From a virus, in the IMG/VR virus record IMGVR_UViG_3300015171_000001, positions 1-64,000 of that record: 64,000 bases of DNA, one strand, 5' to 3'. Positions within the stretch are counted from its first letter, which is position 1; every line of letters begins with the position of its first letter. The notes beneath the pieces were generated by a model that did no database searches, was not told the origin of the DNA, and saw only the letters and a list, made by a program, of their open reading frames with translations. Position numbers and translations under genes: made by a program. Below, one piece after another: positions 8,477-32,331 of this stretch.

Positions 8477-8498
8477 TTAAAAATACTTATTAGATAAG

Positions 8499-11470: not shown

Positions 11471-11478
11471 TATTTATA
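11471..11478 (+). promoter_or_regulatory. TATTTATA start-proximal box
   Basis: TATTTATA followed by ATAT and ATG 11483. Good match to the recurrent motif, at the boundary between the fibre genes and the accessory island. Confidence 0.5.
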
Positions 11479-11482
11479 ATAT

Positions 11483-11788
11483 ATGAATTCCTATAATTTA
11501 AAATGCGAAGATCTTAATATACAAAATTTTATATTAAATCTAAATGATGATACCACTTTTAATTTGAATATAAATTATGCAAGTGGATCTATAAATGAGC
11601 AGTACAGTGGTAGTTTTGTTAGTTCGGATGATATAAATTATACATTAAATTTTAATACAAATGCAAGTTCAAGTATGAATGATTATTTTTTAAAATTAAC
11701 TATTTCTGGTTCTTCTATTGAGAGTATGAAATATATAAATTCTACAAATATGGCATTTGATTCAAAAATGTATATATTTCATGAATGA
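11483..11788 (+). CDS. Small beta-rich virion-like protein (101 aa)
   Basis: Alternating polar/hydrophobic strands with many Asn, Ser and Gly (SGSINEQYSGSFVSS, NFNTNASSSM) suggest an all-beta protein like the Ser-rich structural proteins here. No family recognised. It lies directly after the fibre genes and its stop overlaps the first radical SAM gene by eight bases. It may be a fibre accessory. A substrate role for the adjacent radical SAM enzyme is possible but there is no Cys-rich or leader/core layout to support it. Confidence 0.6.
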   Translation: MNSYNLKCEDLNIQNFILNLNDDTTFNLNINYASGSINEQYSGSFVSSDDINYTLNFNTNASSSMNDYFLKLTISGSSIESMKYINSTNMAFDSKMYIFHE

Positions 11789-12941
11789 GATAAATAAAGA
11801 TATATGTATTCTTCCTTGGCTTTCTTTATTCATTAGAAATGATGGGAATATATATCCATGCGAGATTTTAGCATGGAGATCAAATGATTATCTATTAGGA
11901 AATTTAGAAACAACTACGCTAGAGGAAGCGTTTAATCATCCGGCCATAAAAAAATTAAGAAAAACGGTTTTATTCACAGGAACATGTGAATTATCAAATT
12001 TTCATAAAAATTCTTGTATGTATCTTATAAATCACGAATTATATTCTGATATATATGATAAAATGTATTCTGATACGAGAGAGGATGGTTATTTTGAATT
12101 TAATTTACAAGCTTTATTTTTAAAATTATCTAATTTATGTAATTTAAAATGTGTTTATTGTAATGAACACAGTAGTAGTGTGTGGGAAAAATTTAAAAAC
12201 AAAAATATTAAAAAAATAGATCCAGATGTATATTTGTCAAAGTTATACCCACATTTAAACAATCTTAAAGAGTTGTTTTTTTCTGGAGGAGAACCCATAT
12301 TATATTCATATAATAAAACAATATTAGATTATTTAAAACAAAACAATAAAAATATACAAATAGGAATTGCCACAAATCTGACATATAATTTTGAAAAGTA
12401 TAAATCTTTTTTTGATATTTTAAGTGAGTTTTCTAATAGTAAAGTTTTTTGTAGTATTGATGTTGATCAAGAACAATTTGAATTCATTAGAGAAAATTCT
12501 GATTGGAATTTAGTGAAATATAATTTGGGAAAAATAAAAAATTACAAGAATATAAATGTGTATTTGAATTCGGTTATTTCTACTTTGAGTTCTTTTTATA
12601 TAATGGATTTTCATAAAAGAATGATTTTGGATGGATTATTAGAATGGGATTCAATTCGGTATATTTGTTTAGATAGTCACGAACATCTAAATATTCAAAA
12701 TATGAATTTTAGTAAAAAGAAAGAATTAGAAAATTATCTTTTATTATATTGTGATTTTTTAAAAGAATATGAAAAATCTAATCAAGTAAGAACATATATA
12801 AATAATAAATTTCCTTCGGAAGCAATATTAAAAATAATAGAATTTATGAATCAGATTCCTGCTGACGAAAATTTTATAAACATATTATCAGAAAAAGTTC
12901 CTATAGATATTATTACAAATATTTTTCCTAAATTGTTATGA
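11781..12941 (+). CDS. Twitch-type radical SAM protein 1
   Basis: 386 aa from ATG 11781, a start chosen because it gives an eight-base overlap and begins just before ICILPWLSLFIRNDG. The N-terminal part has the layout CxLPWxxLxIxxDGxxxPC, then LGNLETTTLEEAFNHP, the SPASM/twitch-like auxiliary region placed before the radical SAM core in this family. The core has the 4Fe-4S motif C120-NLK-C124-VY-C127, then FFSGGEPIL (GGE motif) and later IATNLT. Radical SAM enzymes cleave S-adenosylmethionine to start radical chemistry; the substrate is unknown. It overlaps the next radical SAM gene by four bases (ATGA). Confidence 0.85.
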   Translation: MNEINKDICILPWLSLFIRNDGNIYPCEILAWRSNDYLLGNLETTTLEEAFNHPAIKKLRKTVLFTGTCELSNFHKNSCMYLINHELYSDIYDKMYSDTREDGYFEFNLQALFLKLSNLCNLKCVYCNEHSSSVWEKFKNKNIKKIDPDVYLSKLYPHLNNLKELFFSGGEPILYSYNKTILDYLKQNNKNIQIGIATNLTYNFEKYKSFFDILSEFSNSKVFCSIDVDQEQFEFIRENSDWNLVKYNLGKIKNYKNINVYLNSVISTLSSFYIMDFHKRMILDGLLEWDSIRYICLDSHEHLNIQNMNFSKKKELENYLLLYCDFLKEYEKSNQVRTYINNKFPSEAILKIIEFMNQIPADENFINILSEKVPIDIITNIFPKLL

Positions 12942-13891
12942 ATTGCGTTTTGCCATTTTCTCATTTATACCATTTTACAGATGGAAGCACATATCCTTGT
13001 CCAAAATTAGTTTCTAATAAAAATTATATTCTTGGAAAAAATGAAGATTCTGTTGAAACTTTGTTTAATAATGAAATATTAAAAAAAATGAGGTTGCAAT
13101 TTATAAACAAAAATCCACCATCTGTTTGTATTGATCATTGTTTTAATTCTTTAAGTCCAACAAATAAATGTGTAAGAAGTAATACAGAAGAAAACATTGT
13201 TAATTTTTATAATAATGTTAATGAGAGTGGATTTTTAGATACAAAATTTTACACAATAAAGAATATACCAGAATCAAATATATGTAATTTAAAATGTGTA
13301 TATTGTGATGGTAATCATTCATCAAGACATAATAAAAACGAAATAATATTTTCTTTTCAAGATGATGGATTTCGAGAAAAATTTTTATACAATATAGAAA
13401 ATATAAAAGAATGTTGGTTTTCAAGTGGAGAAAGTTTTTTGCAACCAAATTATTTTTGGGCATTGATGGAATTAAAAAAAAGAAATTTAGAAAATGTAAA
13501 AGTATCTATAATAACAAATGGGACAATACTAAATGAGAAAACAAAATTGTTTTTAAGTGTTTTAAATTCTTTTAAAGATCCACATATATTATTTAGTGTA
13601 GATTCAATAGAAAAAAGATTTGAAATCATAAGACAAGGATCGAACTGGAATGATGTCTTAGAAAATATAAAATATATACGAGACAATTATAAAAACATAC
13701 GAATGATTTTTCAACCAGTAATATCAATATTAAACATATTACATTTAAAAGAATTACATTATTTTTTAATGACAGAAAATTTAATTAAAAGTATTGGAGA
13801 TGTTAGATTATATCATCTTAATGGTCCTTCATTTTTAAATATAAAAAATATTAAAAATAAAAAAATTATAAGACTGGCTTTTAATGATTAA
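12938..13891 (+). CDS. Twitch-type radical SAM protein 2
   Basis: 317 aa. The N-terminal auxiliary region reads CVLPFSHLYHFTDGSTYPC, then ILGKNEDSVETLFNN, closely parallel to the preceding protein. The radical SAM cluster motif is C116-NLK-C120-VY-C123. The usual GGE motif is altered to FSSGESFL, and IITNGTIL and LFSVDSI follow as in family members. The C-terminal third is shorter than in protein 1. Tandem coupling (ATGA overlap) suggests the two act in one pathway, perhaps as partners. Confidence 0.82.
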   Translation: MNCVLPFSHLYHFTDGSTYPCPKLVSNKNYILGKNEDSVETLFNNEILKKMRLQFINKNPPSVCIDHCFNSLSPTNKCVRSNTEENIVNFYNNVNESGFLDTKFYTIKNIPESNICNLKCVYCDGNHSSRHNKNEIIFSFQDDGFREKFLYNIENIKECWFSSGESFLQPNYFWALMELKKRNLENVKVSIITNGTILNEKTKLFLSVLNSFKDPHILFSVDSIEKRFEIIRQGSNWNDVLENIKYIRDNYKNIRMIFQPVISILNILHLKELHYFLMTENLIKSIGDVRLYHLNGPSFLNIKNIKNKKIIRLAFND

Positions 13892-13918
13892 ATTAAATAT
13901 TTGAATACACATGATAAT

Positions 13919-14089
13919 ATGTATGATTATTTTTTTAATACAAAAAGTTTGATTAATAAATTAGATGACATTTATAATTTTATTAATACTTCAGAACAAA
14001 ATCAAAATGATATTATTAATTTAAAAAATTTTATTATTAATATTAACAATGAAGAATTGACAAAAGAAATAGAACTTTTATTAATATGA
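13919..14089 (+). CDS. Small Asn/Ile-rich protein (56 aa)
   Basis: From ATG 13919 a 56-aa helical protein (MYDYFFNTKSLINKLDD...); a TTG at 13901 would add six residues. It is very rich in Asn, Ile and Lys and ends with an acidic helix (NEELTKEIELLLI). Its stop overlaps the next start by four bases (ATGA), so it is coupled to the 279-aa protein. No family recognised. Its size and place after two radical SAM genes make it worth testing as a carrier or partner, but no precursor-peptide features are visible. Confidence 0.5.
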   Translation: MYDYFFNTKSLINKLDDIYNFINTSEQNQNDIINLKNFIININNEELTKEIELLLI

Positions 14090-14925
14090 AAAACGATCTT
14101 ATAAAATTTTATAATAATGATTCTACGCAAAATTTCATTAATAATATAAATAATTTAAATAGAGGACAAAAAAAAGATCCACTATCAACGCTCATATCTT
14201 TTAATTTCTATAAAGAAACTGTTCACACATTTAAACTATATGCCGAATTATTTAAATCTTTTTCAGAAGATGAAATTTTAAAATTTTTACCAGAAACAAC
14301 TCAATTCGAAAAATATTTTCCTTATTGGAACAATACTAGAAATTCCAGTTTATGTTTTGGAATAAAATTGAATAATGATTTAGAGCCGATTTATTATACA
14401 CACATAAAGTTTGATCCAAATAAGAGAATATTTGACAAATTCTCAAAATTTAAAAATCCAAAAATGTTAGATATTACTTATAATTACGAAGAGGTGGAAA
14501 CGGGAATATCTTTTGAATATTATAAACAAACTTGCACAGAAAAAAGATATTGGTATTTTTATGATGATGAAAACAAAAATAAGATTTGTAAAAAATTTGA
14601 TATGTCTAATGAATATATAAATCACATAGAATACACAGAATATGATGATAATACTTCTAAAATAATAATGGTGTATGACTATCCTCAAGATTGGGGAGGT
14701 ACTAATATAGGGACCCCTACAAATTATGTATATGAACAATTAAAAAAACATAATCATGAATTAATTGATAATTGCGTTGATTTTTTCAAAAATGAATTTG
14801 ATATTCTGCCAAAATATTTTGGCTCATATAACAATTCGGAAATAATTAGTATTTATTGGAGTTTGACTAAAAAATGGAACGCCATGAATAAACCATATTT
14901 AAAAAATCACATTATTAATATATAG
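14086..14925 (+). CDS. Unknown protein (279 aa) of the accessory island
   Basis: I do not recognise the family. A helical N-terminus (about 1-90) is followed by repeated long beta strands with charged and aromatic residues: SLCFGIKLNNDLEPIYYTHIK, DITYNYEEVETGISFEYY, KIIMVYDYPQDWGGTNIGTP. The layout of repeated antiparallel strands is compatible with a barrel or half-barrel enzyme, but no catalytic motif is evident. It is translationally coupled to the 56-aa gene and converges with the GT2 gene, overlapping it by 11 bases. It is probably an island-specific enzyme or binding protein. Confidence 0.65.
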   Translation: MKNDLIKFYNNDSTQNFINNINNLNRGQKKDPLSTLISFNFYKETVHTFKLYAELFKSFSEDEILKFLPETTQFEKYFPYWNNTRNSSLCFGIKLNNDLEPIYYTHIKFDPNKRIFDKFSKFKNPKMLDITYNYEEVETGISFEYYKQTCTEKRYWYFYDDENKNKICKKFDMSNEYINHIEYTEYDDNTSKIIMVYDYPQDWGGTNIGTPTNYVYEQLKKHNHELIDNCVDFFKNEFDILPKYFGSYNNSEIISIYWSLTKKWNAMNKPYLKNHIINI

Positions 14926-15655
14926 TTAAACATTCAACAAAATTTTTGATGATAAAATCATTTCCCCACAATTTACCTAAATTAGCTATATATTTCTTAT
15001 CTTTAATATCTTGGTATGTTTTTTTTGCTCCACAAACATCTTTAATATCAGAATCTTCATAAGAAGTTAATTGAGCTTCATAATTTACACTTCGCTCATA
15101 ATTGGAATGATCTATAAATTCTAATTTATTGTGATCTAAAAGTCTACATTTCAATCCATATTTCAAAGATCTTAATTTTAAATCAGAATCAATGTAACAT
15201 CTAGTTACTAAATTGCTTCTATTTTCGTCATATCCCCCCAAGGCAATGAAATTATTTCTGTGGAGGGTGATTCTACCACAACTCCCATTTGTTCTCAATT
15301 TCGTCATTAATATTTCATTTTCTCTCAAATTGATCAAATTCTCTAAAAAATAATCATTTATTATATTATCAACATCTAAATTTACCACAATTTCGTTTCT
15401 TGATAATTTATGACATACATTTTTTGAGTGTGCTTCTTTATAATATATCTTATTTTTTGAATAAAAATATGAAAAATTATCATTGATCTTGCAATTGTCA
15501 AATACCCAAGTATCTAATCCATCTGTCGATGAATAATCCAAAAGAACAATTTCATAATTTAATTTCCACTTATTCAAAATATCCAGATTCTTAAAATAAG
15601 TTTCTTTAAAATGGTGTAATCTATTTTTACAAGTTATACAAAATGAATATGTCAT
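14915..15655 (-). CDS. Family 2-like glycosyltransferase
   Basis: 246 aa from ATG 15655, chosen because a TATTTATA box directly abuts it; an upstream TTG at 15676 would add seven residues without support. GT-A fold signs: start SFCITCKNRLHHFKET, then EIVLLDYSSTDGLDTW, then NEIVVNLDVDNI with the metal-binding DVD at 94-96, and FIALGGYDE in the acceptor region. It would transfer a sugar from a nucleotide sugar in the cytoplasm; donor and acceptor unknown. It is divergent from the GT-B gene at 15710. Confidence 0.8.
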   Translation of the reverse strand: MTYSFCITCKNRLHHFKETYFKNLDILNKWKLNYEIVLLDYSSTDGLDTWVFDNCKINDNFSYFYSKNKIYYKEAHSKNVCHKLSRNEIVVNLDVDNIINDYFLENLINLRENEILMTKLRTNGSCGRITLHRNNFIALGGYDENRSNLVTRCYIDSDLKLRSLKYGLKCRLLDHNKLEFIDHSNYERSVNYEAQLTSYEDSDIKDVCGAKKTYQDIKDKKYIANLGKLWGNDFIIKNFVECLTIY

Positions 15656-15663
15656 TATAAATA
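15656..15663 (-). promoter_or_regulatory. TATTTATA box abutting the GT2 start
   Basis: Reads TATTTATA on the minus strand immediately followed by ATG 15655, the shortest spacing of this motif in the window. Confidence 0.4.
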
Positions 15664-15709
15664 AAATATCAAACAATTTTTATAATAATAAAATTAATAT
15701 ATATTTTCA

Positions 15710-16624
15710 ATGATCCATTTTTTATCCGAACATTATGTATGTAATTATACAGAAGAAAAAAACAACGAATATTCAAAATATTGTTTGGGAAAGACTACCC
15801 ATTCTGGATATTATTATTGGATTTTAAAAAATTTGGGAATAAAAAATATAAATTTATGTCTGGACTTATGTGAAATAAAGGAAGGTGATATTGTATTTTT
15901 TTATCACGAAAATTATGTTAATTCTCCAGAATATAAATTTAAGGATTTAGAATATATAAAAAATATAACAAAAATCCAAATTATGGGTGATACAGACAAA
16001 AATATTTGGGCAGATATTTATGCTATAAATGATTTAACATATGTTAATCAAAACGAAAATATATATTTTTTAAATTTTCCTTTGCCATCTAATATAAGAA
16101 AAATGAAAGCAAATTTCCCACCAATTACTTTTGGGACATGTTCTACTAGCTGGGGATTAGATACAAAATTTAAAAAGAAGAAATATATAGAAAAATTCAA
16201 AGAATTAAATATGAATATGATTTATGAATTTGAAACAAATTATATGAGAGAAAATATAGATGTATTTTTTTACTTAAGAAATAAACAATTGCATTTACAT
16301 TTTGATGATATGGGTGAACCAAAACATCCAGTTAGAGGATATAAACACGCTAATAGGCTATATCAATCATTTTACATGAATGTTCCTGCTATATTAAATC
16401 CAGAGTCTGCATTGATTAGTGTAAAGAAATCGGAATATGATTTCTTAGAATGTAATACTATTGACGATTTTATTGATAAATCCATTTTTCTTAAAAATAA
16501 TGAATTTTTCTTTAAAAATATGGTAGACAATTGTATAGCAAGATCCGAAGAACATTCTCATCAGGCAATAAAAAGTCAATTTGAAAAAATATTAAATACA
16601 ATATGTGCAGCTTTTCATTTATAA
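15710..16624 (+). CDS. Probable GT-B glycosyltransferase
   Basis: 304 aa. The C-terminal part has the donor-site pattern KHANRLYQSFYMNVPAILNPESA, which I associate with GT-B-fold nucleotide-sugar transferases in marine bacteria and phages. The N-terminal half is a Rossmann-like domain (GDIVFFYHENYVNSPEYK; ITKIQIMGDTDKNIW). No exact family can be named. Its 3' end overlaps the AsnB-like gene by 22 bases, suggesting coupled expression and a shared pathway. Confidence 0.65.
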   Translation: MIHFLSEHYVCNYTEEKNNEYSKYCLGKTTHSGYYYWILKNLGIKNINLCLDLCEIKEGDIVFFYHENYVNSPEYKFKDLEYIKNITKIQIMGDTDKNIWADIYAINDLTYVNQNENIYFLNFPLPSNIRKMKANFPPITFGTCSTSWGLDTKFKKKKYIEKFKELNMNMIYEFETNYMRENIDVFFYLRNKQLHLHFDDMGEPKHPVRGYKHANRLYQSFYMNVPAILNPESALISVKKSEYDFLECNTIDDFIDKSIFLKNNEFFFKNMVDNCIARSEEHSHQAIKSQFEKILNTICAAFHL

Positions 16625-17904
16625 ATTCAAAAATTGATATTGATCGTTTATATGAGGCCAATTCTATTCAAAAATTAAGAGGGCCAGATAATACAACTAT
16701 TTCATATTTTAAAAATTACACATTCTTACATAATTTATTAAGCATTACTGGAAACAATGTTAACCAACCATTAACAAATAATTCTGAAGATGTCATTTTA
16801 TTGTTTAATGGAGAAATTTATAATTATGATGCAAAATTTTCTGGAGATTCTGCTTATTTATTAAATTTATATGATGAAGATCCAAATAATTTTTATGAAA
16901 GTTTAGATGGAGAATTTGCTTTTGTTATATGTGATTTAAAAAGAAATCAATTAGTTGTTTCGAGAGATATATTTGGAACAAAGCCATTGCATATAGGAAG
17001 AAATGAAAATGTATTTGGAATATCATCTTATCCATCTTTTTTAAATAAATTAGGAATTGTTGATGTTAATATAATATCTCCAAATAAGATATATTATTAT
17101 TCTTTTTCAGATTTTAAAATCATTAATGAAAAAATAATAAAACGATTTGATTTGAATCAATATAAAAATTCTTATGATGATTGGATTTGTTCATTTGAAA
17201 ATTCCATTAAAAAAAGAACAAACACAGATAAAAATATATTCATGACTCTCAGTAGTGGATATGACAGTGGAGTTATTTTTCACGAACTTAATAGACAAAA
17301 TATAAATTTTGATACATTTTATATTCCAATAAATGAAGATTTGGATATTTTAAAAGAAAGATTACAATTTTTCAAATCTTACAAAAATTTTAATGAAATA
17401 TTTATAAATAATATAGAATTTTTTGAAAAAAATGTCGAGAATTTTGTTTATAACTTTTTTAATCAAACTGTTTTTACCGATAACGCTTCTAAAGGAATGT
17501 ATCAAATTTGTTTGGAGGCAAGGAAAAGAAATAATAAGATTTTAATTTCTGGTCAAGGATCTGATGAAATATTTTCAGATTATGGAATTTTGGGATATGA
17601 TAGATATAATTATTCAACATTAAAAGGAATTTTTCCAGAAAATTTATCCGAAGTTTTTCCTTGGAATAATTTTTTTGGTGGTAAACAACAAGCTTATTTA
17701 TTAAAAGAAGAGAGTGTTTCAGGAGCATGTGGCATAGAATCTAGATATCCATTCTTAGATAAATTAGTTGTTCAAGAATTTTTGAATTTAAGTGTGAAAT
17801 TAAAAAATAGAAGATATAAATCTCCACTAGATTATTATTTTAATAAATATAAATTTCCATATTTACTGAATGATAAAAAAGGATTCTCTCCATATGCAAA
17901 ATAA
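16603..17904 (+). CDS. asnB-like: Asparagine synthetase-like glutamine amidotransferase
   Basis: 433 aa, shorter than typical bacterial AsnB (about 550). The start is fixed by MCSFS, which leaves Cys2 as the N-terminal nucleophile of class II glutaminases. NGEIYN (69-74), LDGEFAFVI and SRDIFGTKPL complete that domain. The synthetase half has the pyrophosphate loop LSSGYDSG (216-223), an altered SGGxDS motif, and SGQGSDEIF (316-324). Such enzymes amidate carboxyl groups: aspartate in AsnB, but also sugars or peptides in modification clusters. Its position between glycosyltransferase genes favours a glycan or peptide substrate over free asparagine (inference). It overlaps the next gene. Confidence 0.85.
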   Translation: MCSFSFINSKIDIDRLYEANSIQKLRGPDNTTISYFKNYTFLHNLLSITGNNVNQPLTNNSEDVILLFNGEIYNYDAKFSGDSAYLLNLYDEDPNNFYESLDGEFAFVICDLKRNQLVVSRDIFGTKPLHIGRNENVFGISSYPSFLNKLGIVDVNIISPNKIYYYSFSDFKIINEKIIKRFDLNQYKNSYDDWICSFENSIKKRTNTDKNIFMTLSSGYDSGVIFHELNRQNINFDTFYIPINEDLDILKERLQFFKSYKNFNEIFINNIEFFEKNVENFVYNFFNQTVFTDNASKGMYQICLEARKRNNKILISGQGSDEIFSDYGILGYDRYNYSTLKGIFPENLSEVFPWNNFFGGKQQAYLLKEESVSGACGIESRYPFLDKLVVQEFLNLSVKLKNRRYKSPLDYYFNKYKFPYLLNDKKGFSPYAK

Positions 17905-18703
17905 ATCTCTAGTTTGTTTATTAGATAAATCATATTCAGAACAATTCTCAATTTTTATTTATTCTTTATTAAAAAATAATCCTTGGTTTAATTATGATAT
18001 AAACGTTTTTTATTGGGAAGATGATCTAATAAATGATATTGATAAATTTAAAAATATATATAAAAAAATAATTTTTAATAAAATAAACGAGACATTGTAT
18101 GAAGATTGTTTAATAACTAAAAAATGGAGAATTTGGAATTACAATCCATTTTATAGATTTGAAATATTTTCATTAAAAAATTATTCCAAAATTGTCTATA
18201 TGGATTTAGATATGTTAATTTTAGGAGACATTTCATTTCTGTTCAATAATGATATTGATTTTGCTGGGTGTCCAATATTATTTGGGACTGGTATGGAATT
18301 TATAGGAAAAACAAATAAAAACAGATTTAATGGAGGATTACTTATTATCTCCGAAAAGTATCTAGGTAATAAAATACGAGACGATTTAATTAGTATGTGT
18401 GAGATGAAAAGTTATTCTGGAAATCAAACCCCATTAAATTTTTATTTTCAAAACAATGTTACTTTTATAGATCCTATTTATAATTTTTCTTTAGATTTAA
18501 ATTTTGATATTAATTTCGAAGATATTAAAGTGTTGCATTTTATAGGAAATATAAAGCCATTTTTTTCAAATCCAAATAAATTTTTAATAACAGAAAATTT
18601 TGAAGAATATATATATTCAAAAGCATCTATTAAAAATTGCTTTAATGCTTTATTAATTTACGATCAATATAAAAAAGAGTTTTATGATAAACACATTCAT
18701 TAA
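17894..18703 (+). CDS. Family 8-like glycosyltransferase
   Basis: 269 aa from ATG 17894, preferred over ATG 17870 because the fold begins at once (KSLVCLLDKSYSEQFSIFIYSL) and overlap with the AsnB-like gene falls to 11 bases. The metal-binding motif is YMDLDMLILGD (DLD at 104-106), followed by FNGGLLIIS and GNQTPLNFYF, the order seen in GT8 enzymes that use UDP-sugars with retention. The C-terminal VLHFIGNIKPF matches the H-x-x-G-x-x-KPW region of GT8. It overlaps the next gene by 20 bases. Confidence 0.82.
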   Translation: MQNKSLVCLLDKSYSEQFSIFIYSLLKNNPWFNYDINVFYWEDDLINDIDKFKNIYKKIIFNKINETLYEDCLITKKWRIWNYNPFYRFEIFSLKNYSKIVYMDLDMLILGDISFLFNNDIDFAGCPILFGTGMEFIGKTNKNRFNGGLLIISEKYLGNKIRDDLISMCEMKSYSGNQTPLNFYFQNNVTFIDPIYNFSLDLNFDINFEDIKVLHFIGNIKPFFSNPNKFLITENFEEYIYSKASIKNCFNALLIYDQYKKEFYDKHIH

Positions 18704-19496
18704 AGATAATTTAAATTTCCATAATAAATTATTTATAAATTCTGTTCTATCAAATGCGGGATCTTGTTGTGTGTGGACTTATAATGTAGAAAATTTAAAA
18801 AAACAAACTCCATTTGGAGTAAAAATTAAAAATGCAGAAGAAATAATTCCAAAAATAATTATGGAAGAAATTTATAACATTTTTCCAAATTTATTCATAA
18901 AATATTTTAAATTTGCCTATTTGTATGATTATGGTGGATGTTTTTGTGACCCAACAATTGTAATTACAAATAAAAAATTAATAAAAGAAATAGACTCTCA
19001 TGAAAATTTGATATTTTGTGATAAAGAGTATTGTGATTTTCTAACGAGTGGCAATTTAGATAAAGAAGCTTTTGATAAATTTATAAAAGTTGGTAAAAAT
19101 AAAATAGAATTTTCTAGAGATATGTTTTTATATATAGAAAATTTTATTTTTAAGGAAAATAAAAATCCTAGATTATTTTTTCCAGAAATGAATATAACAT
19201 ATATTAATAAAAAAATAGAAACTTGTAATCAATTTTATAAGAAATTATATTATTCTGCTAATGAATATAAATTTCAAATTGGTGATGACAATCAATTAAC
19301 TATAGAATGTAAAGAAGATTGGAAGAATTTTCCTATTAGTGATATGAATAAAATTAGGGAAAAATTAAAAATCATTATGGATAATCTATATTATATAGAT
19401 TTATCAAATTTTAATTTAACTAATTTACATACATTACCAACAATAATAATGTTGTTAATAAAAAGAATACAAAATTCTGAATTTAATATATTATAA
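18684..19496 (+). CDS. GT32-like sugar transferase
   Basis: 270 aa. Recognised by the pattern YFKFAYLYDYGGCFCDPTIVI, equivalent to the FxDxxRYxxLYxxGGxYxDxD signature of DXD-containing sugar-binding transferases (GT32/Gly_transf_sug). The second Asp of the DxD is replaced (CDPT), so metal binding may be altered. The N-terminal WTYNVENLKKQTPFGVK also fits. It ends the plus-strand run 15710-19496 and converges with radical SAM 3. Confidence 0.68.
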   Translation: MINTFIKDNLNFHNKLFINSVLSNAGSCCVWTYNVENLKKQTPFGVKIKNAEEIIPKIIMEEIYNIFPNLFIKYFKFAYLYDYGGCFCDPTIVITNKKLIKEIDSHENLIFCDKEYCDFLTSGNLDKEAFDKFIKVGKNKIEFSRDMFLYIENFIFKENKNPRLFFPEMNITYINKKIETCNQFYKKLYYSANEYKFQIGDDNQLTIECKEDWKNFPISDMNKIREKLKIIMDNLYYIDLSNFNLTNLHTLPTIIMLLIKRIQNSEFNIL

Positions 19497-19498
19497 CA

Positions 19499-20761
19499 TT
19501 ACTCAAGTAAATACTCATTTATTAGTCCATCAATTTTATTACAAATATTTATTGGAAAATTATTATCAAAACAACTTTGTTTTAAAAAAGTTCTTATCTC
19601 TATTTTTTTTTCTATTGTTAGAGAATTAATCGTAAATATTGGAATTTTTTCTAAAAGAGGTGGTTCCTTTTTTCTAACACAATGACTCGGAATATCTTTT
19701 ATTTCACTAAAAATTTCATTTATGGAAGCACCAATTACTTCATTATTATCAAATAATAATTTTATATTATTTTCAATACAAAAATCTCCATTTTTTAATA
19801 AAATATTTATTATTTCTGAATCTGTATATTTTTTTATACTAGTCAAAGGAATTTCATGAATTCCTTGAATGTATCCACCAATTGCACCATCTGTTCTATT
19901 AAAACAAATTTCTATTCCATTTTTAATACAATATTTTATTATATCTGGAATTTCTAAAATATTTTGTAACATAGGACAAATGGCAAGTCCAAATAAAACT
20001 TTCTTTTCTAGAAAATGATTTATATTAGACATTACATTTTTATAATTTCCATTTTTTCTTATTTTTTCATATGTTGTTTCATTTATAGAATCCATTGAAA
20101 TTGTCAATTTTAAATTTTTCAATTTCTTAAAATAATTTTCCATTTTTTCATTTAAAATAGAACCATTTGTTGTGATTGAAATATTAACATCAGGATTTAT
20201 TTTAATAATTTCGTCAAGAATTTTATAATTCAGATCATATAAAAATGGCTCTCCTCCATAAAATTTCACAATTTTTAAATATGGAATGAATTCAATAAGT
20301 TGTTCTATAAATGAATCATTGTATATATTTTTTATTTTGGGAAGACATTCTCTATTTTTTCTTATAGATGATGAATTTTCTCCACCACACATAATACATT
20401 CATAATTACATATATTGGACAATTCAAAAGTAATGTCCATTGGATATTTATTATCTTCTTCTTTATAATTTTTATAATCATCAAATACTTTTAACATTAC
20501 ATTTTCATAATTTCCCTTTTTAATAGGATTTATACAAGAATTCATACAAACATCTGGAAATTTATGATTCGCCATATCTAATCTCATCTGTTTTATGCCA
20601 TTCCCAACCCAAATTTCTTTAATTGATTGTTCTGGCCATTTACCTATAGAATATGATTTTGTTTTACAACAAACAGAAACTTTTCCATTTTTATCAAAAT
20701 ATAAAGTGTGGTGCGGTGCTAAACAAGGAAATTTCCTATTTAAAATATCTTTGATGTCCAT
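19499..20761 (-). CDS. Twitch-type radical SAM protein 3
   Basis: 420 aa from ATG 20761. An upstream extension to 20902 is possible but adds a low-complexity segment, and TAGTTATC lies three bases before ATG 20761. The N-terminal auxiliary region is CLAPHHTLYFDKNGKVSVCC, then WPEQSIKEIWVGNGIKQMR and CMNSC. The radical SAM motif is C118-NYE-C122-IM-C125, then KFYGGEPFL (GGE intact), ITTNGSIL and TISMDSI. It is the most canonical of the three radical SAM proteins here and on the opposite strand from the other two. Substrate unknown. Confidence 0.85.
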   Translation of the reverse strand: MDIKDILNRKFPCLAPHHTLYFDKNGKVSVCCKTKSYSIGKWPEQSIKEIWVGNGIKQMRLDMANHKFPDVCMNSCINPIKKGNYENVMLKVFDDYKNYKEEDNKYPMDITFELSNICNYECIMCGGENSSSIRKNRECLPKIKNIYNDSFIEQLIEFIPYLKIVKFYGGEPFLYDLNYKILDEIIKINPDVNISITTNGSILNEKMENYFKKLKNLKLTISMDSINETTYEKIRKNGNYKNVMSNINHFLEKKVLFGLAICPMLQNILEIPDIIKYCIKNGIEICFNRTDGAIGGYIQGIHEIPLTSIKKYTDSEIINILLKNGDFCIENNIKLLFDNNEVIGASINEIFSEIKDIPSHCVRKKEPPLLEKIPIFTINSLTIEKKIEIRTFLKQSCFDNNFPINICNKIDGLINEYLLE

Positions 20762-20764
20762 ATT

Positions 20765-20772
20765 GATAACTA
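20765..20772 (-). promoter_or_regulatory. Variant start-proximal box TAGTTATC
   Basis: Minus strand TAGTTATC, three bases (AAT) before ATG 20761; one mismatch from TATTTATC. Same variant and spacing as before the gene at 36504. Confidence 0.35.
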
Positions 20773-20824
20773 TAAAATATTTTTTAAGATAATATATTTT
20801 AATATTTTTTTCATATTTAATAAT

Positions 20825-21346
20825 ATGGCTAAATCGATTGTTTATAAAAATGTAGATGGTACACTTGAGATTCTTCGTGGATGTATTTCTAAAAAATCCC
20901 ATGAGGGCGAAATTGAATATTTAACTAGAATCGCAAAAACAACTTATGGTAATAGAAAATTTAATATTGTGGATATTCCTCATTCAAATTTAATTTCTAA
21001 TAAAAAATATCCTTATGATTTAAATTTCAGAAAGGCTTGGACCGTGGAAAATAATAAATTAATAGTAAATTTAGATAAAGCAAAACAAATCTGGAAAGAT
21101 ATTATAAGAGATTATGCCAATAAAGCTATTTTAAAATTAAATGAAGAAATTCAATTATATTTAGAGCAAGCCGATTTGGAATCTATAAAAGAATTGGGGG
21201 AAGTAAAACAAATATTAAAAAATGTTCACACTACTGTTGATGAAATTGATTTTAAATCATTGGATCATTTGAAAAGCTACTGGCCAACAATTTTATTTCC
21301 TGCACCCGATTTTGTATTAAATATTCCCATGGAACAGTTCAATTAA
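20825..21346 (+). CDS. Tail-fibre-assembly-like protein (173 aa)
   Basis: The middle carries YPYDLNFRKAWTVENNKLIVNLDKAKQIWKD. It resembles the FRxAW...ISVNMxKAKxI element in phage tail proteins and small tail-fibre assembly or chaperone proteins. The rest is a long helical region (about 85-150). It may be a chaperone or adaptor for the fibres upstream. It overlaps the GT32 gene by one base (TAATG), which ties fibre assembly and sugar transfer in one transcript and supports a fibre-glycosylation idea. Confidence 0.6.
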   Translation: MAKSIVYKNVDGTLEILRGCISKKSHEGEIEYLTRIAKTTYGNRKFNIVDIPHSNLISNKKYPYDLNFRKAWTVENNKLIVNLDKAKQIWKDIIRDYANKAILKLNEEIQLYLEQADLESIKELGEVKQILKNVHTTVDEIDFKSLDHLKSYWPTILFPAPDFVLNIPMEQFN

Positions 21347-22155
21347 TGAATAGTCCAATAAAATATGATAATATAATAAATTTTCTGTGGATTGATGGAG
21401 AACTTTCCTTATTGGAAAAAATGTGTGTTAATTCATTTTTAATGAATTCTTATGTGGTTAAATTATGGACATATAATAAAAATTTAGAAATATCTTCTTG
21501 GATATTTAATTCTAAAGAATCTCATTTTTCAGTGTGTGATGCAAATAAAATAATTCCATCTAAAAATGTATTTAAATATTTGGGCAATGGAGATTGTAGA
21601 AAGAATAGTTTTGGAGGATTTAGTGATATTTTTAGATATGAATTATTATATCAAAATGGAGGATGGTATTGCGACATAGATATGATGTGCATAAATCCAT
21701 TTGCAGATTTTCATAATCAGGAGTATGTTTTTCGATCCCACCACATGACAGAAATTTGTGGAAATATTATAAAATGTCCAAAAGGATCTGATATAATGAA
21801 TGATTGTAGATATGAATCAAAAAAATTAATTACTTGTGAAAATAATGATTGGCATTTGCCTTTAAAAATATTACAGAGAAATTTTCACAAATATTCTTTG
21901 GAAAAATATATAGCAGAAAAAAAATATTATGGTAATGACGATTCCGAAAATTTAATAATATCTAATAGAGCATATAATGATATATTTTTAAGTACTATAA
22001 AAAAAATATATAAAATTCCATATGAATATGCATTTCATTGGATGAACGAAGCAAATAAAAATGGATTATATGGAAATAAACCGGTTGATTGGAATACTCC
22101 TTTTCCTAGAACAGTATACAAAGAATGTTTAAAAAAATATGAAATCAATAAATAA
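21346..22155 (+). CDS. GT32-family glycosyltransferase
   Basis: 269 aa with a textbook signature: FSDIFRYELLYQNGGWYCDIDMMC, containing the DxD metal and donor site (split here: FSDIFRYELL; YQNGGWYCDID). The N-terminal NIINFLWIDGELSLLEKMC and VKLWTYN are also typical, as is ending in a conserved His/Trp segment (YAFHWMNEA). It would transfer a sugar from a nucleotide donor. It is coupled upstream by TAATG and overlaps the SGNH hydrolase gene by 17 bases. Confidence 0.85.
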   Translation: MNSPIKYDNIINFLWIDGELSLLEKMCVNSFLMNSYVVKLWTYNKNLEISSWIFNSKESHFSVCDANKIIPSKNVFKYLGNGDCRKNSFGGFSDIFRYELLYQNGGWYCDIDMMCINPFADFHNQEYVFRSHHMTEICGNIIKCPKGSDIMNDCRYESKKLITCENNDWHLPLKILQRNFHKYSLEKYIAEKKYYGNDDSENLIISNRAYNDIFLSTIKKIYKIPYEYAFHWMNEANKNGLYGNKPVDWNTPFPRTVYKECLKKYEINK

Positions 22156-23029
22156 TTATTATGAGTTATTTAAAACTAACACAATTCCAAAAACAATATG
22201 CTCTTCTCCAAATTCATATTTAAATTTTTATCACTGTGATTCAGAAGAAAATTTTAATACAGATCCTCACCCAAATTATATAAATAAAAACTTTGGATAT
22301 ACATTTAATAACTTTGGATATAGATGTGACAATTTTTCTAATGAAAATGAATATAAAATATTAACTATTGGATGTAGTATTTCTTTTGGTGTGGGATTGC
22401 CAATAGAAGAAACATATGCAAATATATTATGTAACAAACTAAGTATAAAATATGGAAAGAAAATTTCAAATTATAATTTATCTGCCAATGGAGCAGGGTC
22501 TGATTATATATCAAGAATTCTTTTACAAACCATAGATATTTTACAACCAAATTTTGTTATTATTTTATTTCCAGAATTTTCTAGACTAGAACATTATTGC
22601 GAGAATTCAAGATATGAAAATGTAAGTGCATCTGGAATATTAAATGGTTATAGTGAATCCGTAAAACATATTTATGCTGAACTTATTACAAACAATTCAC
22701 ATATGTTTTTCAATTTTGTGAAAAATTTTTATTTAATAAATGAAACATTGAAAAATAGAAAAATAGATTTTTATTGGAATAATTGGAGTTCGGATTTTTT
22801 AAATGGATTGTCTGATAAAAATTATATTAATGAATTAACGCAATACATTTCATTAACTAATACAGATATTTCTCAAGAATTTATAAAAGATTTTTTAACT
22901 AAAATGTATAGTGAATCGTGGGAAAATAAAATATATAAGGCTAGAGATTGGATACATACTGGAAAAAATTTTCACGAATACTTTGCTAATTATTTATATG
23001 AAAAAATTGTTAAAAAGAATATTTTTTGA
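22139..23029 (+). CDS. SGNH/GDSL-like hydrolase
   Basis: 296 aa. Block I is KILTIGCSISFGVGLP with the likely nucleophile Ser80. Block II is NLSANGAGSDYISR. The C-terminal Asp-x-x-His pair is found in ARDWIHTGKNFHEYFA. These are SGNH features; members deacetylate or acetylate glycans or cleave esters. No signal peptide is seen, so a cytoplasmic role on a glycan intermediate is more likely than secretion. It overlaps the GT32 gene, which fits sugar O-acyl editing. Confidence 0.75.
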   Translation: MKSINNYYELFKTNTIPKTICSSPNSYLNFYHCDSEENFNTDPHPNYINKNFGYTFNNFGYRCDNFSNENEYKILTIGCSISFGVGLPIEETYANILCNKLSIKYGKKISNYNLSANGAGSDYISRILLQTIDILQPNFVIILFPEFSRLEHYCENSRYENVSASGILNGYSESVKHIYAELITNNSHMFFNFVKNFYLINETLKNRKIDFYWNNWSSDFLNGLSDKNYINELTQYISLTNTDISQEFIKDFLTKMYSESWENKIYKARDWIHTGKNFHEYFANYLYEKIVKKNIF

Positions 23030-23095
23030 TAAAATTAAAAAGGTTATATTATACTATAAATTGAAGAAACTTTCTAAAAAAGATCCATTTATTTA

Positions 23096-24583
23096 TTAGT
23101 ATATTCGAATATTATACTTTTCTGAAAATTGTTTACAATCTTCTTCATTATTTATAATAGGTTGCCCTTTTATATTTAATGATGTGTTTAATAACATTGG
23201 ACAACCAGTTCTACTATTCCATTCACTTAATAATTGATAGTAAAAATAATTTTGTTTTTCATTTACTGTTTGTATTCTACATGTTCCATCAACATGTGTT
23301 ATTTCACTATATTTCTTAGGATCTCTTGTTTTAAAAACATATTGCATATTTGGAGAAAATACTCGTTCTTCTCTTTCACAAAAAAAGTATTTTTTAGCAT
23401 AAGATTCTAATATAGAAACAGCAAATGGTCTAAACTCTTCCCTTTGTTTTATATTATTTACTTCATTTTTAATTCCAATTTTTCTTGGATCTGCTAATAA
23501 TGATCGATTACCTAAAGCTCTAGGACCAAATTCAGATTTTCCTTGTGCTAACCCAATTATTTCTCCACGTTCTAATTTAGACACCATTTCTGGTATTTTA
23601 TCAACATTTGATTCCAAATTATATCCTAAATATGGCGCGGGTTTATTTATATGTTGAGTTAATACTGCTCCCATAGAAAGTCCACCATCTCCACAATTAA
23701 ATGGGATATAAACATTATTAAACAATCTAGAACTTAATATTTTTGTATTTGCTACACAATTCAATGCACATCCACCAGTCAATATTAGATTTTTTGAGTT
23801 GTTTAATGATTTTGCAAAGATACAAAATTTTTCTAAATAATCTTCATATAAAATTTGAATGGCATTTGCGGTTCTAAATGGATTTTCATTAAACCTTGAT
23901 ATTTCTTCTTCTGAGAATCCTTTGTGTAAATTTCTTACTTTAAATGATTCAATATTTTTATCTATAATGAAGTCTTCCAATCCTTCATAATATAAAGAGT
24001 TTTCAAATGAAGACATACCCATTACAATATATTCTTCTTCATTTGGTTTCTTCCCCAATGCTTTTGTTATTGCCGAATATAATAATCCTAATGAATTTGG
24101 ATAATATGTCTTGTGTAGACATGTTAATTTGTTATCTATACCTTTCCATATAGAAATACATTCGTCGTCACCTATAGCATCTACAACTAAAATGGTGGCG
24201 TCTTTAAACTCGGATGTAAAAAAACCCTGTCTTGCATGAGCCAAATGATGTGAACAATATTCTATATTATAATAAAAATCGCCAGTATCAAAACAACTTA
24301 TAATAGATTCAAACTGTTTTTTTGGAGAGATTTCAAATACTTTTTTCCATTGGCCACTTTTTATTTCTCTATATTTTTTACTAATCGGATTTTCTGCAAT
24401 AATTATATTTTCGGGAACACCAAACTGAAAAGCATAGTCAATTAAATCTTTCCCAATAGATGTATCATTTTTTATCTTACTAAATCTTTCATTCTCACTT
24501 GCAAATAAAATTTCTTTTTTATCAGTATCAAATACACATAAAGATGCATTATGATTTTGATTATTAATTCCCCATTTAAGCAT
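23096..24583 (-). CDS. NodU/CmcH-family O-carbamoyltransferase
   Basis: 495 aa. The N-terminal ASKHA-fold half begins WGINNQNHNASLCVF, with the metal-binding motif CSHHLAHA (110-117), VVDAIGDDE and LTGGCALN. The C-terminal half has GKSEFGPRALGNRSLLADPR, REEFRPFAVSIL and CPMLLNTSLNIKGQPI, all hallmarks of the carbamoyltransferase family. The reaction is transfer of a carbamoyl group from carbamoyl phosphate via carbamoyl-AMP to a hydroxyl, often of a sugar. It is somewhat shorter than TobZ/NodU because the extreme C-terminus is trimmed. It overlaps the upstream GT8-like gene by eight bases, so a carbamoylated sugar is the likely product. Confidence 0.92.
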   Translation of the reverse strand: MLKWGINNQNHNASLCVFDTDKKEILFASENERFSKIKNDTSIGKDLIDYAFQFGVPENIIIAENPISKKYREIKSGQWKKVFEISPKKQFESIISCFDTGDFYYNIEYCSHHLAHARQGFFTSEFKDATILVVDAIGDDECISIWKGIDNKLTCLHKTYYPNSLGLLYSAITKALGKKPNEEEYIVMGMSSFENSLYYEGLEDFIIDKNIESFKVRNLHKGFSEEEISRFNENPFRTANAIQILYEDYLEKFCIFAKSLNNSKNLILTGGCALNCVANTKILSSRLFNNVYIPFNCGDGGLSMGAVLTQHINKPAPYLGYNLESNVDKIPEMVSKLERGEIIGLAQGKSEFGPRALGNRSLLADPRKIGIKNEVNNIKQREEFRPFAVSILESYAKKYFFCEREERVFSPNMQYVFKTRDPKKYSEITHVDGTCRIQTVNEKQNYFYYQLLSEWNSRTGCPMLLNTSLNIKGQPIINNEEDCKQFSEKYNIRIY

Positions 24584-25358
24584 TTAAATATTCCTGTTGA
24601 GTTTTAATAAAAATAGGATTTTGTTTTCTATTACCATCTCCGCTCCAAATAATACCGTCTTCAGTAAATTTATCATCTTTAAAAATTGAAGATAGTTTAT
24701 GTAATGTTAATGCTGCGTGGTATTTGTTATAAACATTATAAAAGTCTAGTTGATCGCCTACTGTATAAACTCCATTTGATACAATTTCATCTCTTAGTGC
24801 TTGAAAAAATCTTAATGAATTATGTGTGGCTTTTATTCCAATTAACCCACAAGCATATGTTGTAAATTTTCTCCAATCTATAGGATGATCTATAATAGGA
24901 TATTTATAAATAGAAATATCATTTTGAGAAATTATGTCAACTAAAGGCGCGAGGTCTTTCACGACCAAATTATCAACATCTATATATAATATATTCTGCT
25001 CTTGTTTTGATTTTAATAATTGAGTTATTATTTCTGGAAACATTTGGTATCTTAAATTATTACAAAATGCAAATTCATCTGACATAAATCTTCCACTTAG
25101 TTGACCACATTCATATCTAGTTAATTTGTTTTCAGTAGAATCTAATTTAATATCAATAAATTTTGGTAATATAAAAATTTTAGAGTCGGCATATAATTTA
25201 GTATAAAAACTATTAACTTCTGTTTTATCACAATTTACAAAATATGTTAATACACTAGAAACACAATGACTTGAATTTTTTGCTAGACTTTTTACAAATG
25301 ATTTAAAATATGGTAAATATTTTTGATTGGTGACGCAGACAATGTTTAATTTGTTCAT
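24576..25358 (-). CDS. GT8-like nucleotide-sugar transferase
   Basis: 260 aa. N-terminus LNIVCVTNQKYLPYFKSFVKSL, metal site ILYIDVDNLVV (DxD), then YACGLIGIK and VGDQLDFYN in the acceptor region, as in GT8 enzymes. The C-terminal IIWSGDGNRKQNP resembles the sugar-binding H-x-x-G-x-x-K element with Ser for His. It is the first gene of a minus-strand two-gene operon with the carbamoyltransferase. The start at 25358 follows a TATTTATC box by four bases. Confidence 0.75.
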   Translation of the reverse strand: MNKLNIVCVTNQKYLPYFKSFVKSLAKNSSHCVSSVLTYFVNCDKTEVNSFYTKLYADSKIFILPKFIDIKLDSTENKLTRYECGQLSGRFMSDEFAFCNNLRYQMFPEIITQLLKSKQEQNILYIDVDNLVVKDLAPLVDIISQNDISIYKYPIIDHPIDWRKFTTYACGLIGIKATHNSLRFFQALRDEIVSNGVYTVGDQLDFYNVYNKYHAALTLHKLSSIFKDDKFTEDGIIWSGDGNRKQNPIFIKTQQEYLNA

Positions 25359-25362
25359 TTGA

Positions 25363-25370
25363 GATAAATA
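25363..25370 (-). promoter_or_regulatory. TATTTATC start-proximal box
   Basis: Minus strand TATTTATC, four bases (TCAA) before ATG 25358; drives the GT8-like/carbamoyltransferase pair. Confidence 0.5.
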
Positions 25371-25433
25371 GATTATGAAATATAAAAAATATTAAGTCTA
25401 TATTTTTTATAAAAATTTGATATATATCTTATT

Positions 25434-26054
25434 ATGCTCCTAAATCTTAAAAATTATTTCCACGTCGAAAAGTCTGTTTTTTCTAAAGAATTTTGTGAAA
25501 AAATAATATCTGTTTCTGAAAAAAATTGGGAAAGGGATAAAATTGAAAAAGATTTTGAATATAGAAAATCTAAAGTAGTTTTCTTACAGAATATAAATGA
25601 CCCAGAAATTCAATTCATAAAAAATACAATTTTTCCCGTCGTGGAACAAATTAAAAAACAAAAATGGAAAACTTTTAAATTATATAACCTTCAACCTATG
25701 CAATATACTGTTTATAAAGCACCTCACGGAAATTATTCGTGGCATTCTGATACAAGTGATAGAAATCAACCAACTATGAAAAATAGATTATTATCATTCT
25801 CGATTCAATTAACAGATCCCCAATCAAATTATGAAGGAGGAGAATTTGAAATTATAGAAGAACTTTCTCAGAATTGGTCGTGTTGTAAAATAAACTCGCT
25901 CTTCAATTTTGATAAGAAAAAAACTATTACAGCAGAAGACTTTCCGCAAGGATCAATTTTGGTCTTTCCGTCTCTATTAGGACATAGAGTAACTACAATC
26001 ACCGAGGGAACTCGGCGATCATTGGTTGGATGGACAGAGGGAACTTTTATTTAA
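25434..26054 (+). CDS. 2OG-Fe(II) oxygenase (PKHD/prolyl hydroxylase type)
   Basis: 206 aa with the facial triad H104-x-D106 (YSWHSDTSD) and H184 (LLGHRV), plus the 2-oxoglutarate-binding Arg in TRRSLVGW. The pattern GGEFEI and PQGSILVFPS between them is typical of the 2OG-FeII_Oxy fold. It hydroxylates a substrate using O2 and 2-oxoglutarate. Such enzymes are common in aquatic phages with unknown targets; here it flanks the glycan island and may act on sugar or protein. Its 3' end overlaps the zinc-finger gene on the other strand by 36 bases. Confidence 0.88.
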   Translation: MLLNLKNYFHVEKSVFSKEFCEKIISVSEKNWERDKIEKDFEYRKSKVVFLQNINDPEIQFIKNTIFPVVEQIKKQKWKTFKLYNLQPMQYTVYKAPHGNYSWHSDTSDRNQPTMKNRLLSFSIQLTDPQSNYEGGEFEIIEELSQNWSCCKINSLFNFDKKKTITAEDFPQGSILVFPSLLGHRVTTITEGTRRSLVGWTEGTFI

Positions 26055-26374: not shown

Positions 26375-27052
26375 ATGATTGATTATAAAAAGTGTGAAAA
26401 TTGGACAGAAAAGGATTTGGAAAAGAATTACAATGATTTTATTACTTTTGTAAAAAAAGTTCTTCCTGATTCGGAAAGAACCATTAAGTTATTGAGGTTA
26501 TATGATAAATTTGCTGATAGAATTGCGACTGCTCCTGCAAGTGGCAAAGCAAACTTTCACATGGCTATTCCAGGAGGATATGTATGTCATATTATGAATG
26601 TGTGTAGATCTGTAACAGGTGTTAAAAAACTATATGAAGCAATTGGGGGAACTATTGACTTTTTAGACACAGAGATGTATTTCGCATGTCTCAATCATGA
26701 CCTAGGAAAAATTGGAGATGAAAATGGTGATTATTATATTCCAGAAGATTCACAATGGAAAAGAGACCAAGGAACTTTATATAAAATAAATGGACAGATC
26801 CAGAATATGCATGTTACGGATCGATCCCTGTTCCAATTACAAAAACACGGAATTGAAACTACACAAAAAGAATGGCTTGCTATTAAACTTTCAGATGGTT
26901 TGTATGAAGAAGAAAATAAATATTATTTAATTAGTAATACCCACGAAAAAACATTAAAAACAAATTTACCACATATTGTTCATACGGCAGATTTTCTTTC
27001 TTTTAAGATGGAAAAAGATGCGTGGAATAAAACCTTGCCAGATATAACTTAA
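26375..27052 (+). CDS. HD-domain phosphohydrolase-like protein
   Basis: 225 aa. The metal-binding HD arrangement is visible: GGYVCHIMNV (His72), ACLNHDLGKIGD (His108-Asp109) and a late IVHTADFLS (Asp). This order is typical of HD-superfamily phosphohydrolases acting on nucleotides or nucleic acids. The N-terminal 60 residues are helical. It may dephosphorylate nucleotides in phage nucleotide metabolism; the exact substrate is not evident. It converges on the GSFTG-repeat gene with a four-base overlap. Confidence 0.78.
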   Translation: MIDYKKCENWTEKDLEKNYNDFITFVKKVLPDSERTIKLLRLYDKFADRIATAPASGKANFHMAIPGGYVCHIMNVCRSVTGVKKLYEAIGGTIDFLDTEMYFACLNHDLGKIGDENGDYYIPEDSQWKRDQGTLYKINGQIQNMHVTDRSLFQLQKHGIETTQKEWLAIKLSDGLYEEENKYYLISNTHEKTLKTNLPHIVHTADFLSFKMEKDAWNKTLPDIT

Positions 27053-32236: not shown

Positions 32237-32331
32237 GGGTTCGTAGTGTAATTGGTAAGCACAAACAGATTTATATCCTGTGCGCCCCTGAATAGGGCTT
32301 AGCCTCGGTTCAATTCCGAGCGAACCTACCA
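32237..32331 (+). tRNA. Class II tRNA, probably Leu-type, anticodon UAU as read
   Basis: Acceptor GGGTTCG/CGAACCT with G-U at the first pair, U8-A9, D arm with GG in the loop, T arm CTCGG-TTCAATT-CCGAG and encoded CCA (32329-32331). A long variable arm (GCCC/GGGC stem) and A73 mark a Leu-type class II tRNA. The anticodon stem is irregular: ACAGA (32265-32269) faces CCTGT (32277-32281), leaving an A-C mismatch below a loop TTTATAT, and one extra A precedes the stem. Read this way the anticodon is UAU (32272-32274), not a Leu anticodon. It may be degenerate, or a base may be wrong. Confidence 0.7.

Follow-up and report, generated by a model that had tools for sequence, protein, structure and literature searches.

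A variable island of glycan-related genes between the fiber-like and baseplate genes of a distant T4-superfamily phage

Phages carry many sugar-modifying genes, the targets of which are mostly unknown. A dense run of such genes in one phage genome raises the question of what they build and whether the product is placed on the virion or on the infected cell. The DNA analyzed here (the window) comprises positions 1 to 64,000 of the 157,280-bp IMG/VR record IMGVR_UViG_3300015171_000001; coordinates refer to the window unless marked as genome coordinates. The island, at 11483 to 26054, encodes glycosyltransferases (GTs), an AsnB-like amidotransferase, a NodU-type carbamoyltransferase, radical S-adenosylmethionine (SAM) proteins, and a 2-oxoglutarate (2OG) oxygenase. 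The analysis upholds this region as a glycan island and partly supports its being a functional unit. Our reading, held tentatively and at slightly less than even confidence, is that it is an island of the host recognition cluster type that assembles and decorates a glycan, with the gene at 20825 and its GT32 neighbor most likely acting on a tail fiber. The comparison also yielded two small, testable gene pairs, 20825-GT32 and AsnB-GT8, the members of which are as follows.

16603..17904 (+), short AsnB-like class II amidotransferase (Asn_synthase 3e-19, GATase_7 3e-18; Cys2, SSGYDS)
17870..18703 (+), GT8, directly 3' of the AsnB-like gene (PF01501 5.7e-21, 75.7 bits, above cut-off)
20825..21346 (+), helical phage protein ("TFA") with a C-terminal WPxxLxPxP motif, coupled to GT32
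21346..22155 (+), GT32 (PF04488 1.8e-8, 35.4 bits, above cut-off; DID motif)

The 20825 gene is coupled to GT32 in other phages

Relatives of GT32 were sought with aligned queries, which gave 33 viral loci, or 23 after near copies were removed at 90%. (Single-protein queries with AsnB, GT32, or an SbcC-like protein found nothing on viral contigs; aligned pairs succeeded.) A member of the 20825 family was present in 16 of the 23 nonredundant loci; in 15, it lay immediately 5' of GT32 and in the same orientation, often with an overlap of 4 to 17 nt. The other partners in these loci were GT8 (17 loci), AsnB (8), radical SAM (5), and NodU (3). In L341, L342, and L348, the 20825-GT32 module comes after fiber genes with Peptidase_S74 and Mtd_N domains, and the same layout was judged by motif in L343 and L354. 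By inspection, the GT32s of L347 and L355 are fused to additional GT domains.

The first-pass annotation of the window had described 20825 as a tail-fiber-assembly-like gene translationally coupled to GT32. Its place directly upstream of GT32 recurs, as the 15 loci show, and the assembly label was lost for want of a family match. Membership of 20825 in the tail fiber assembly chaperone families (lambda Tfa, Caudo_TAP, and Phage_tail_APC) was considered and rejected (hhalign with lambda Tfa, E value of 0.22). The family has 18 aligned members, and the relatives have little in common except the C-terminal WPxxLxPxP. In one uncultured phage (L334), a tryptophan-halogenase-family gene (1334-2869) is among the genes upstream of 20825-GT32-GT8.

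A short, virus-typical AsnB-like protein is linked to GT8

The two domain matches of the 16603 protein confirm its earlier description as an AsnB-like class II amidotransferase. It starts with MC, has glutaminase and synthetase domains, and carries the PP-loop as an SSGYDS variant. Against TIGR01536 (asparagine synthetase B), it scored 151.5 bits, below the curated cut-off of 267, and by these profiles it is AsnB-like and not an AsnB equivalog.

Relatives of this protein were found in at least 443 viral stretches, and the counts given here come from the best 80 loci. The 78 full-length viral relatives have a median length of 442 aa; all start with MC, and 69 contain SSGYDS. In 89 cellular relatives, the median length is 621 aa and SSGYDS occurs once. 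Two trees were built, the first with the longest 40 cellular rows and the second with short cellular sequences, which placed L246 inside the viral clade. Apart from L246, viral and sampled cellular sequences separate with a support of 98 to 100, a split that long branches warn against over-reading. L246 is a deltaproteobacterial single-cell contig, and its SSGYDS AsnB lies within a polysaccharide export locus. Because L246 falls inside it, the short SSGYDS clade is, on these trees, virus typical and not strictly viral. The phage-type AsnB of L246 may reflect gene exchange between phage and host.

A GT8 gene lies within five genes of the viral AsnB in 31 of 54 nonredundant loci and is immediately 3' of it in 11, as in the window; direct neighbors mostly overlap by 4 nt. 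By the same profile, no GT8 was found within five genes of AsnB in the cellular loci. Among 115 proteins adjoining viral AsnB, the commonest were nucleotide-sugar epimerases/dehydratases, GTs (Nucleotid_trans, TOD1/MUCI70, GT2, GT34, and NodZ), and methyltransferases. These neighbors agree with the glycan-building role first suggested for the island. A sugar acid as the substrate of the amidotransferase would fit this neighborhood, and asparagine synthesis would not require such neighbors.

Further glycan-related genes of the island

Seven more genes had been read as a carbamoyltransferase, an SGNH hydrolase, an oxygenase, and GTs.

23096..24583 (-), NodU/TobZ-type O-carbamoyltransferase (PF16861 5e-52, 176.4 bits; PF02543 1e-27, 97.7 bits)
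22139..23029 (+), SGNH-hydrolase-like protein (GCS and DxxH motifs only; no family match)
25434..26054 (+), 2OG-Fe(II) oxygenase (PF13640 6.8e-13; HxD...H)
14915..15676 (-), GT2 (PF00535 1.8e-6, above the Pfam cut-off); the start is probably the ATG at 15655
15710..16624 (+), unknown protein; GT call unsupported
18684..19496 (+), divergent GT32-like protein (PF04488 E value of 0.021, 16 bits, below cut-off; iterated GT32 profile 1e-5)
24576..25358 (-), divergent GT8-like protein (PF01501 E value of 0.023, 14.7 bits, below cut-off; iterated GT8 profile 8e-27; DVD motif)

The carbamoyltransferase assignment stands. Both domains of the 23096 protein score above their cut-offs, the HHxxH metal motif is present as HHLAH at residue 112, and a PDB sequence (7xb6) matches at 6e-48, so the protein fits the NodU/TobZ family, and carbamoyl transfer to a sugar hydroxyl is its predicted activity. 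NodU has been known in cyanophages since at least 2010 (PMC3037559). The oxygenase at 25434 was likewise confirmed by its Pfam match. For the SGNH hydrolase, the motifs were recovered together with a weak BLASTP match (4e-4) to an SGNH-like protein adjoining NodU in L027, and a family match was not.

About six GTs had been proposed. Three (14915, 17870, and 21346) score above the Pfam cut-offs, and two (18684 and 24576) are weak and were recovered with iterated profiles only. The 18684 protein has no DXD motif and is possibly inactive. The sixth call, 15710, was not sustained; searches of Pfam, NCBIfam, PDB sequences, and annotated phages found no counterpart, the sole match of the protein was to phrog_33989 (weak, 0.001; function unknown), and an AlphaFold model built without relatives failed (predicted local distance difference test score of 36). 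In tblastn searches of annotated phages, 15710, 24576, 22139, and 20825 were all without a match.

Radical SAM genes

11757..12941 (+), radical SAM protein rS1 (start at TTG 11757 or ATG 11781; NF033640 196.2 bits; CNLKCVYC)
12938..13891 (+), radical SAM protein rS2 (NF033640 181.1 bits; stop falls inside the match)
19499..20764 (-), radical SAM protein rS3 (open reading frame [ORF] open to 20902; NF033640 172.3 bits; CNYECIMC)
14086..14925 (+), unknown protein u14086 (iterated profile search and adjacency)

All three predicted twitch-domain radical SAM proteins exceed the curated cut-off of NF033640 (N_Twi_rSAM), which is 170 bits, and contain the CxxxCxxC cluster motif. One of them, rS2, is truncated; an in-frame TAA at 13889-13891 ends it, and the reading frame is open again to about 14050. 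The start of rS3 is probably 20764, hence without overlap with 20825.

The u14086 gene follows a radical SAM gene both in the window and in L329-L331 and L333, and in L329-type phages 20825-GT32-GT8 comes two genes after this pair. NodU is usually distant from radical SAM genes in other phages. Uncultured phages can carry twitch radical SAM genes in tandem, with 12 matches in G033 (31-49 kb, L137-L138) and 7 in G025 (197-204 kb, L140), and the literature describes a T4-like genome from the environment that has 12 radical SAM genes (PMC5332604).

The island is a variable locus in a T4-superfamily genome

For the major capsid protein (genome 80020-81645), the identity to the counterpart in Flavobacterium phage immuto is 52%, to that in Mel-JY01 (Microcystis) 51%, and to that in RM378 (Rhodothermus) 37%. 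Because of these identities, we assign the source phage by sequence to a distant branch of the T4 superfamily of myoviruses, related to immuto. The borders of the island are as follows.

4958..11459 (+), two paralogous fiber-like proteins of 1172 and 986 aa (ORFs); left border
26375..27052 (+), HD-type phosphohydrolase-like anchor gene (h26375); right border, adjoining baseplate genes in relatives

The fiber-like paralogues match each other (phmmer, 1e-237). They are called fiber-like from composition and place, as border proteins without a family match; a PHROG search with the second (986 aa) gave no match. The anchor gene is 41 to 46% identical in six relatives, including immuto, and 35 to 40% in two more.

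The island is divided into about seven transcription units, which use both strands, and the rest of the genome is almost wholly on the plus strand. The GC content of the island is 23.2%, versus 27.8% for the genome (Mann-Whitney test on genes, P = 5e-6); the island value is the third lowest among 288 windows of island length. Since family E values reach about 1e-52 and the GC content differs to this extent, the island exceeds chance. Overlapping starts had been noted for many genes; those of 12938, 16603, 17870, 18684, 21346, 22139, and 24576 overlap or abut a neighboring gene, and that of the 19499 gene, probably at 20764, is clear of 20825. A single conserved operon comprising all parts was rejected, as strands, GC content, and relatives disagree. 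We also ruled out a bacterial fragment misjoined to the phage; the island is flanked by h26375, PhoH, and genes of the baseplate, and cassettes of this type occupy the equivalent position in relatives.

Upstream of the 26375 homologue, two phages with capsid proteins 56 to 57% identical to that of the source phage (G007 and G009) carry a radical SAM-like gene, SGNH-type hydrolases, 2OG oxygenases, and a sulfotransferase-like gene; no GT was identifiable at this place. Their NodU is a more distant copy within the baseplate region. Phage immuto has a lipopolysaccharide (LPS)-type island of its own about 17 kb upstream of the 26375 homologue, and the other relatives have none there. The closest relatives of different island genes are scattered over different phages. 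Because G007, G009, and immuto differ in content at the same anchor, we conclude that the locus is variable and its content exchanged. The first-pass annotation had looked to related phages for conserved co-occurrence; modules do recur (20825-GT32, AsnB-GT8, and L339, described below), but the nearest capsid relatives carry different enzymes at this place. Independently gained cassettes, which it took to count against a shared role, are partly what we see, namely, a variable place with exchanged content.

Comparison with known systems

The island resembles the host recognition cluster (HRC) of pelagimyophages and cyanomyophages (PMC7029224), a variable island bounded by VrlC and gp14 in the structural region of T4-like phages, with tail fiber genes, GTs (GT8 being the commonest), and radical SAM cassettes. 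Like the HRC, it is a variable region of GT and radical SAM cassettes among structural genes. Unlike the HRC phages, the source phage belongs to another T4 branch (near immuto and Mel-JY01), its island lies between fiber-like and baseplate genes, and AsnB and NodU are present in addition. Synechococcus phage S-SCSM1 (MK867354; PMC9602691) has NodU, 2OG oxygenases, several GTs, and a short AsnB within about 25 kb. Its AsnB is orthologous to 16603 (about 40% identity, equal length, SSGYDS). S-SCSM1 differs from the source phage in having GDP-sugar genes of its own as well as methyltransferases; its record yielded no twitch radical SAM gene, and neither GT32 nor GT8 was found with the thresholds applied. 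NodU and AsnB are not discussed in the S-SCSM1 paper. The earlier proposal of a single undescribed pathway is therefore not supported, given the different enzymes of the nearest capsid relatives, the scattered closest relatives of the parts, S-SCSM1, and the radical SAM cassettes and GT8-rich islands of pelagimyophages. This kind of region is already known, and the mixture in the window is richer.

Two uncultured viral sequences come closer in gene content. G028 (IMGVR_UViG_3300028581_003582) is T4-like by its portal and tail sheath stabilizer, and its fiber genes pass unbroken into glycan genes. After the fiber genes come another 20825 relative, oxygenases, the run 20825-GT32-GT8-GT8, a deacetylase gene, and then NodU beside an SGNH-like gene. 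G028 lacks the AsnB and twitch radical SAM genes of the window and carries genes for a PIG-L deacetylase, an aminotransferase, an epimerase, and a transketolase. The unrelated contig L339 (IMGVR_UViG_3300023174_009201) holds the 20825 family, GT32, GT8, AsnB, a second GT8, and NodU together, but in another order and on other strands, with no radical SAM gene in the stretch and a DegT aminotransferase gene upstream. In mycobacteriophages, phage GTs glycosylate virion proteins (Freeman et al. 2023, as cited in PMC12619734); that system, compared here from the literature only, concerns the capsid and tail tube of siphophages. For the 20825-GT32 and AsnB-GT8 pairs, a literature search of open-license text found no description.

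Promoter-like motifs

11471..11478 (+), late-promoter-like motif TATTTATA, just 5' of h11483
11483..11788 (+), small protein h11483 (101 aa; ORF), leader of the radical SAM unit

The motif TATTTATA is the reverse complement of TATAAATA, which we take to be the T4 late -10 box. Of 126 nonisland genes, 21 have it at most 60 nt ahead of them, compared with 1.9 expected at random places, and many of these are structural (capsid protease, sheath, tube, and gp25-like by position). Family searches with h11483 gave no confident assignment. Because TATTTATA precedes h11483, the frame of which overlaps rS1, rS1 and rS2 may be expressed late. Scans for sigma-70 promoters gave 146 matches versus 162 in shuffled sequences, i.e., no excess. 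The motif often lies 3 to 10 nt ahead of the start codon (4935, 11471, and 41886; genome 74593, 91893, and 126477), and late mRNAs would be nearly leaderless if it acts like a -10 box.

Possible function of the island

What follows on reactions, acceptor, and benefit is inferred from families, motifs, gene linkage, and position. The variable host-recognition-type locus between fiber-like and baseplate genes would have been assembled from phage modules (AsnB-GT8, 20825-GT32 with or without GT8, NodU-GT8, and radical SAM-u14086). As the island holds no nucleotide-sugar genes, its GTs would draw sugar donors from the infected cell. The 20825/GT32 pair would attach the first or an early sugar to a tail fiber protein, with AsnB amidating a sugar acid and NodU adding a carbamoyl group to a hydroxyl; the benefit would be altered fiber binding or shielding of the virion. 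We lean toward a fiber for the GT32 part because of the neighbors of GT32 in other phages. The reading also draws on the unbroken run from fiber to glycan genes in G028, the AsnB-GT8 linkage and sugar-related neighbors of viral AsnB, the late-promoter-like motif ahead of h11483, rS1, and rS2, and the radical SAM, SGNH, 2OG, and sulfotransferase-like genes that G007 and G009 have at this place. A fuller scheme, in which the SSGYDS AsnB (about 440 aa) and GT8 amidate a sugar acid on a fiber glycan begun by 20825/GT32 and NodU and the radical SAM proteins and oxygenases decorate it further, is one we consider unlikely. If true, it would give an amidated, carbamoylated virion glycan; we know of no such phage decoration, nor of an AsnB or carbamoyltransferase in mycobacteriophage virion glycosylation.

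Several observations weigh against the fiber reading. No homology of 20825 to known fiber chaperones was found, and neither it nor its 17 relatives had a Pfam match; the structure model of 20825 is confident solely in a C-terminal helical hairpin; and no Peptidase_S74 fiber was found in the source phage. Two further points also favor a different target, the envelope glycan (LPS or capsule) of the infected cell, where the island might serve superinfection exclusion or free progeny from receptor-bearing debris. No GT unit carries TATTTATA in the 60-nt upstream test, an absence that is not significant with seven unit heads, and the one cellular AsnB of the viral clade (L246) lies among ABC-type polysaccharide export genes together with epimerase and sulfotransferase genes, a setting suggestive of envelope glycans. 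Nucleotide-sugar and O-antigen-type genes surround viral AsnB, the window contains a Capsule_synth gene at 34875, and immuto has its LPS-type island. An envelope-modifying role has also been proposed for the GTs of pelagimyophages and cyanophages and argued for GT8-rich islands (PMC7029224). We regard an envelope target as possible but short of probable; by itself, it does not explain the tight 20825-GT32 coupling and the adjoining fiber genes in other phages.

The genes could instead have been gained independently, as cargo that yields no shared product, and be clustered at an insertion hot spot. The use of both strands, the low GC content, the broken radical SAM gene, and the nearby IS607-like element would suit such an origin, as would the location of the closest relatives in different phages, the differing content of the nearest relatives, and the mostly unlinked radical SAM and NodU genes elsewhere. 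The recurrent linkage of 20825-GT32-GT8, AsnB-GT8, and AsnB/NodU, with one contig holding five of the parts, makes this unlikely in our judgment. Least credible to us, and very improbable, is that the radical SAM genes act apart from the glycan genes, with a nucleotide, a peptide, or a virion protein as the substrate, for example. No substrate of the family is known in this setting, tandem arrays without adjoining GTs occur in G033 and G025, one phage has 12 such genes (PMC5332604), and rS1 and rS2, not the GT units, lie behind the late-promoter-like motif; the L329-type phages, with radical SAM-u14086 two genes from 20825-GT32-GT8, speak against it. If, as in the fiber reading, GT32 and its partner glycosylate fibers, phages would have a general means to alter their own receptor-binding surface, which would affect host range and neutralization; an action on the host would make the pair a route to superinfection exclusion. 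In both cases, the comparison supplies a hypothesis for two widespread, unstudied phage gene families.

Neighboring features

Further glycan genes lie outside the island, namely, the Capsule_synth gene (PF05159) at 34875-35771 (-) and a GT4-like gene at genome 116017-117078. Beside the island, the 27049-28467 gene (-) encodes a protein with GSFTGSFTGS repeats, a possible sugar acceptor; similar repeats occur at genome 97589-101782. The IS607-like pair at 29639-31553 (-) consists of a serine recombinase with a MerR-type helix-turn-helix (30948-31553; Resolvase 5e-21) and a 440-aa TnpB-like neighbor, for which no match was found in Pfam or NCBIfam. By eye, the portal and prohead protease genes (genome 68588-72808 and 74605-76284) appear to be split by intein-like sequences with starts of the C-x-x-G-D/S-T-L-I type. 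The sole tRNA gene of the window is a tRNA-Ile with anticodon TAT at 32237-32331 (+).

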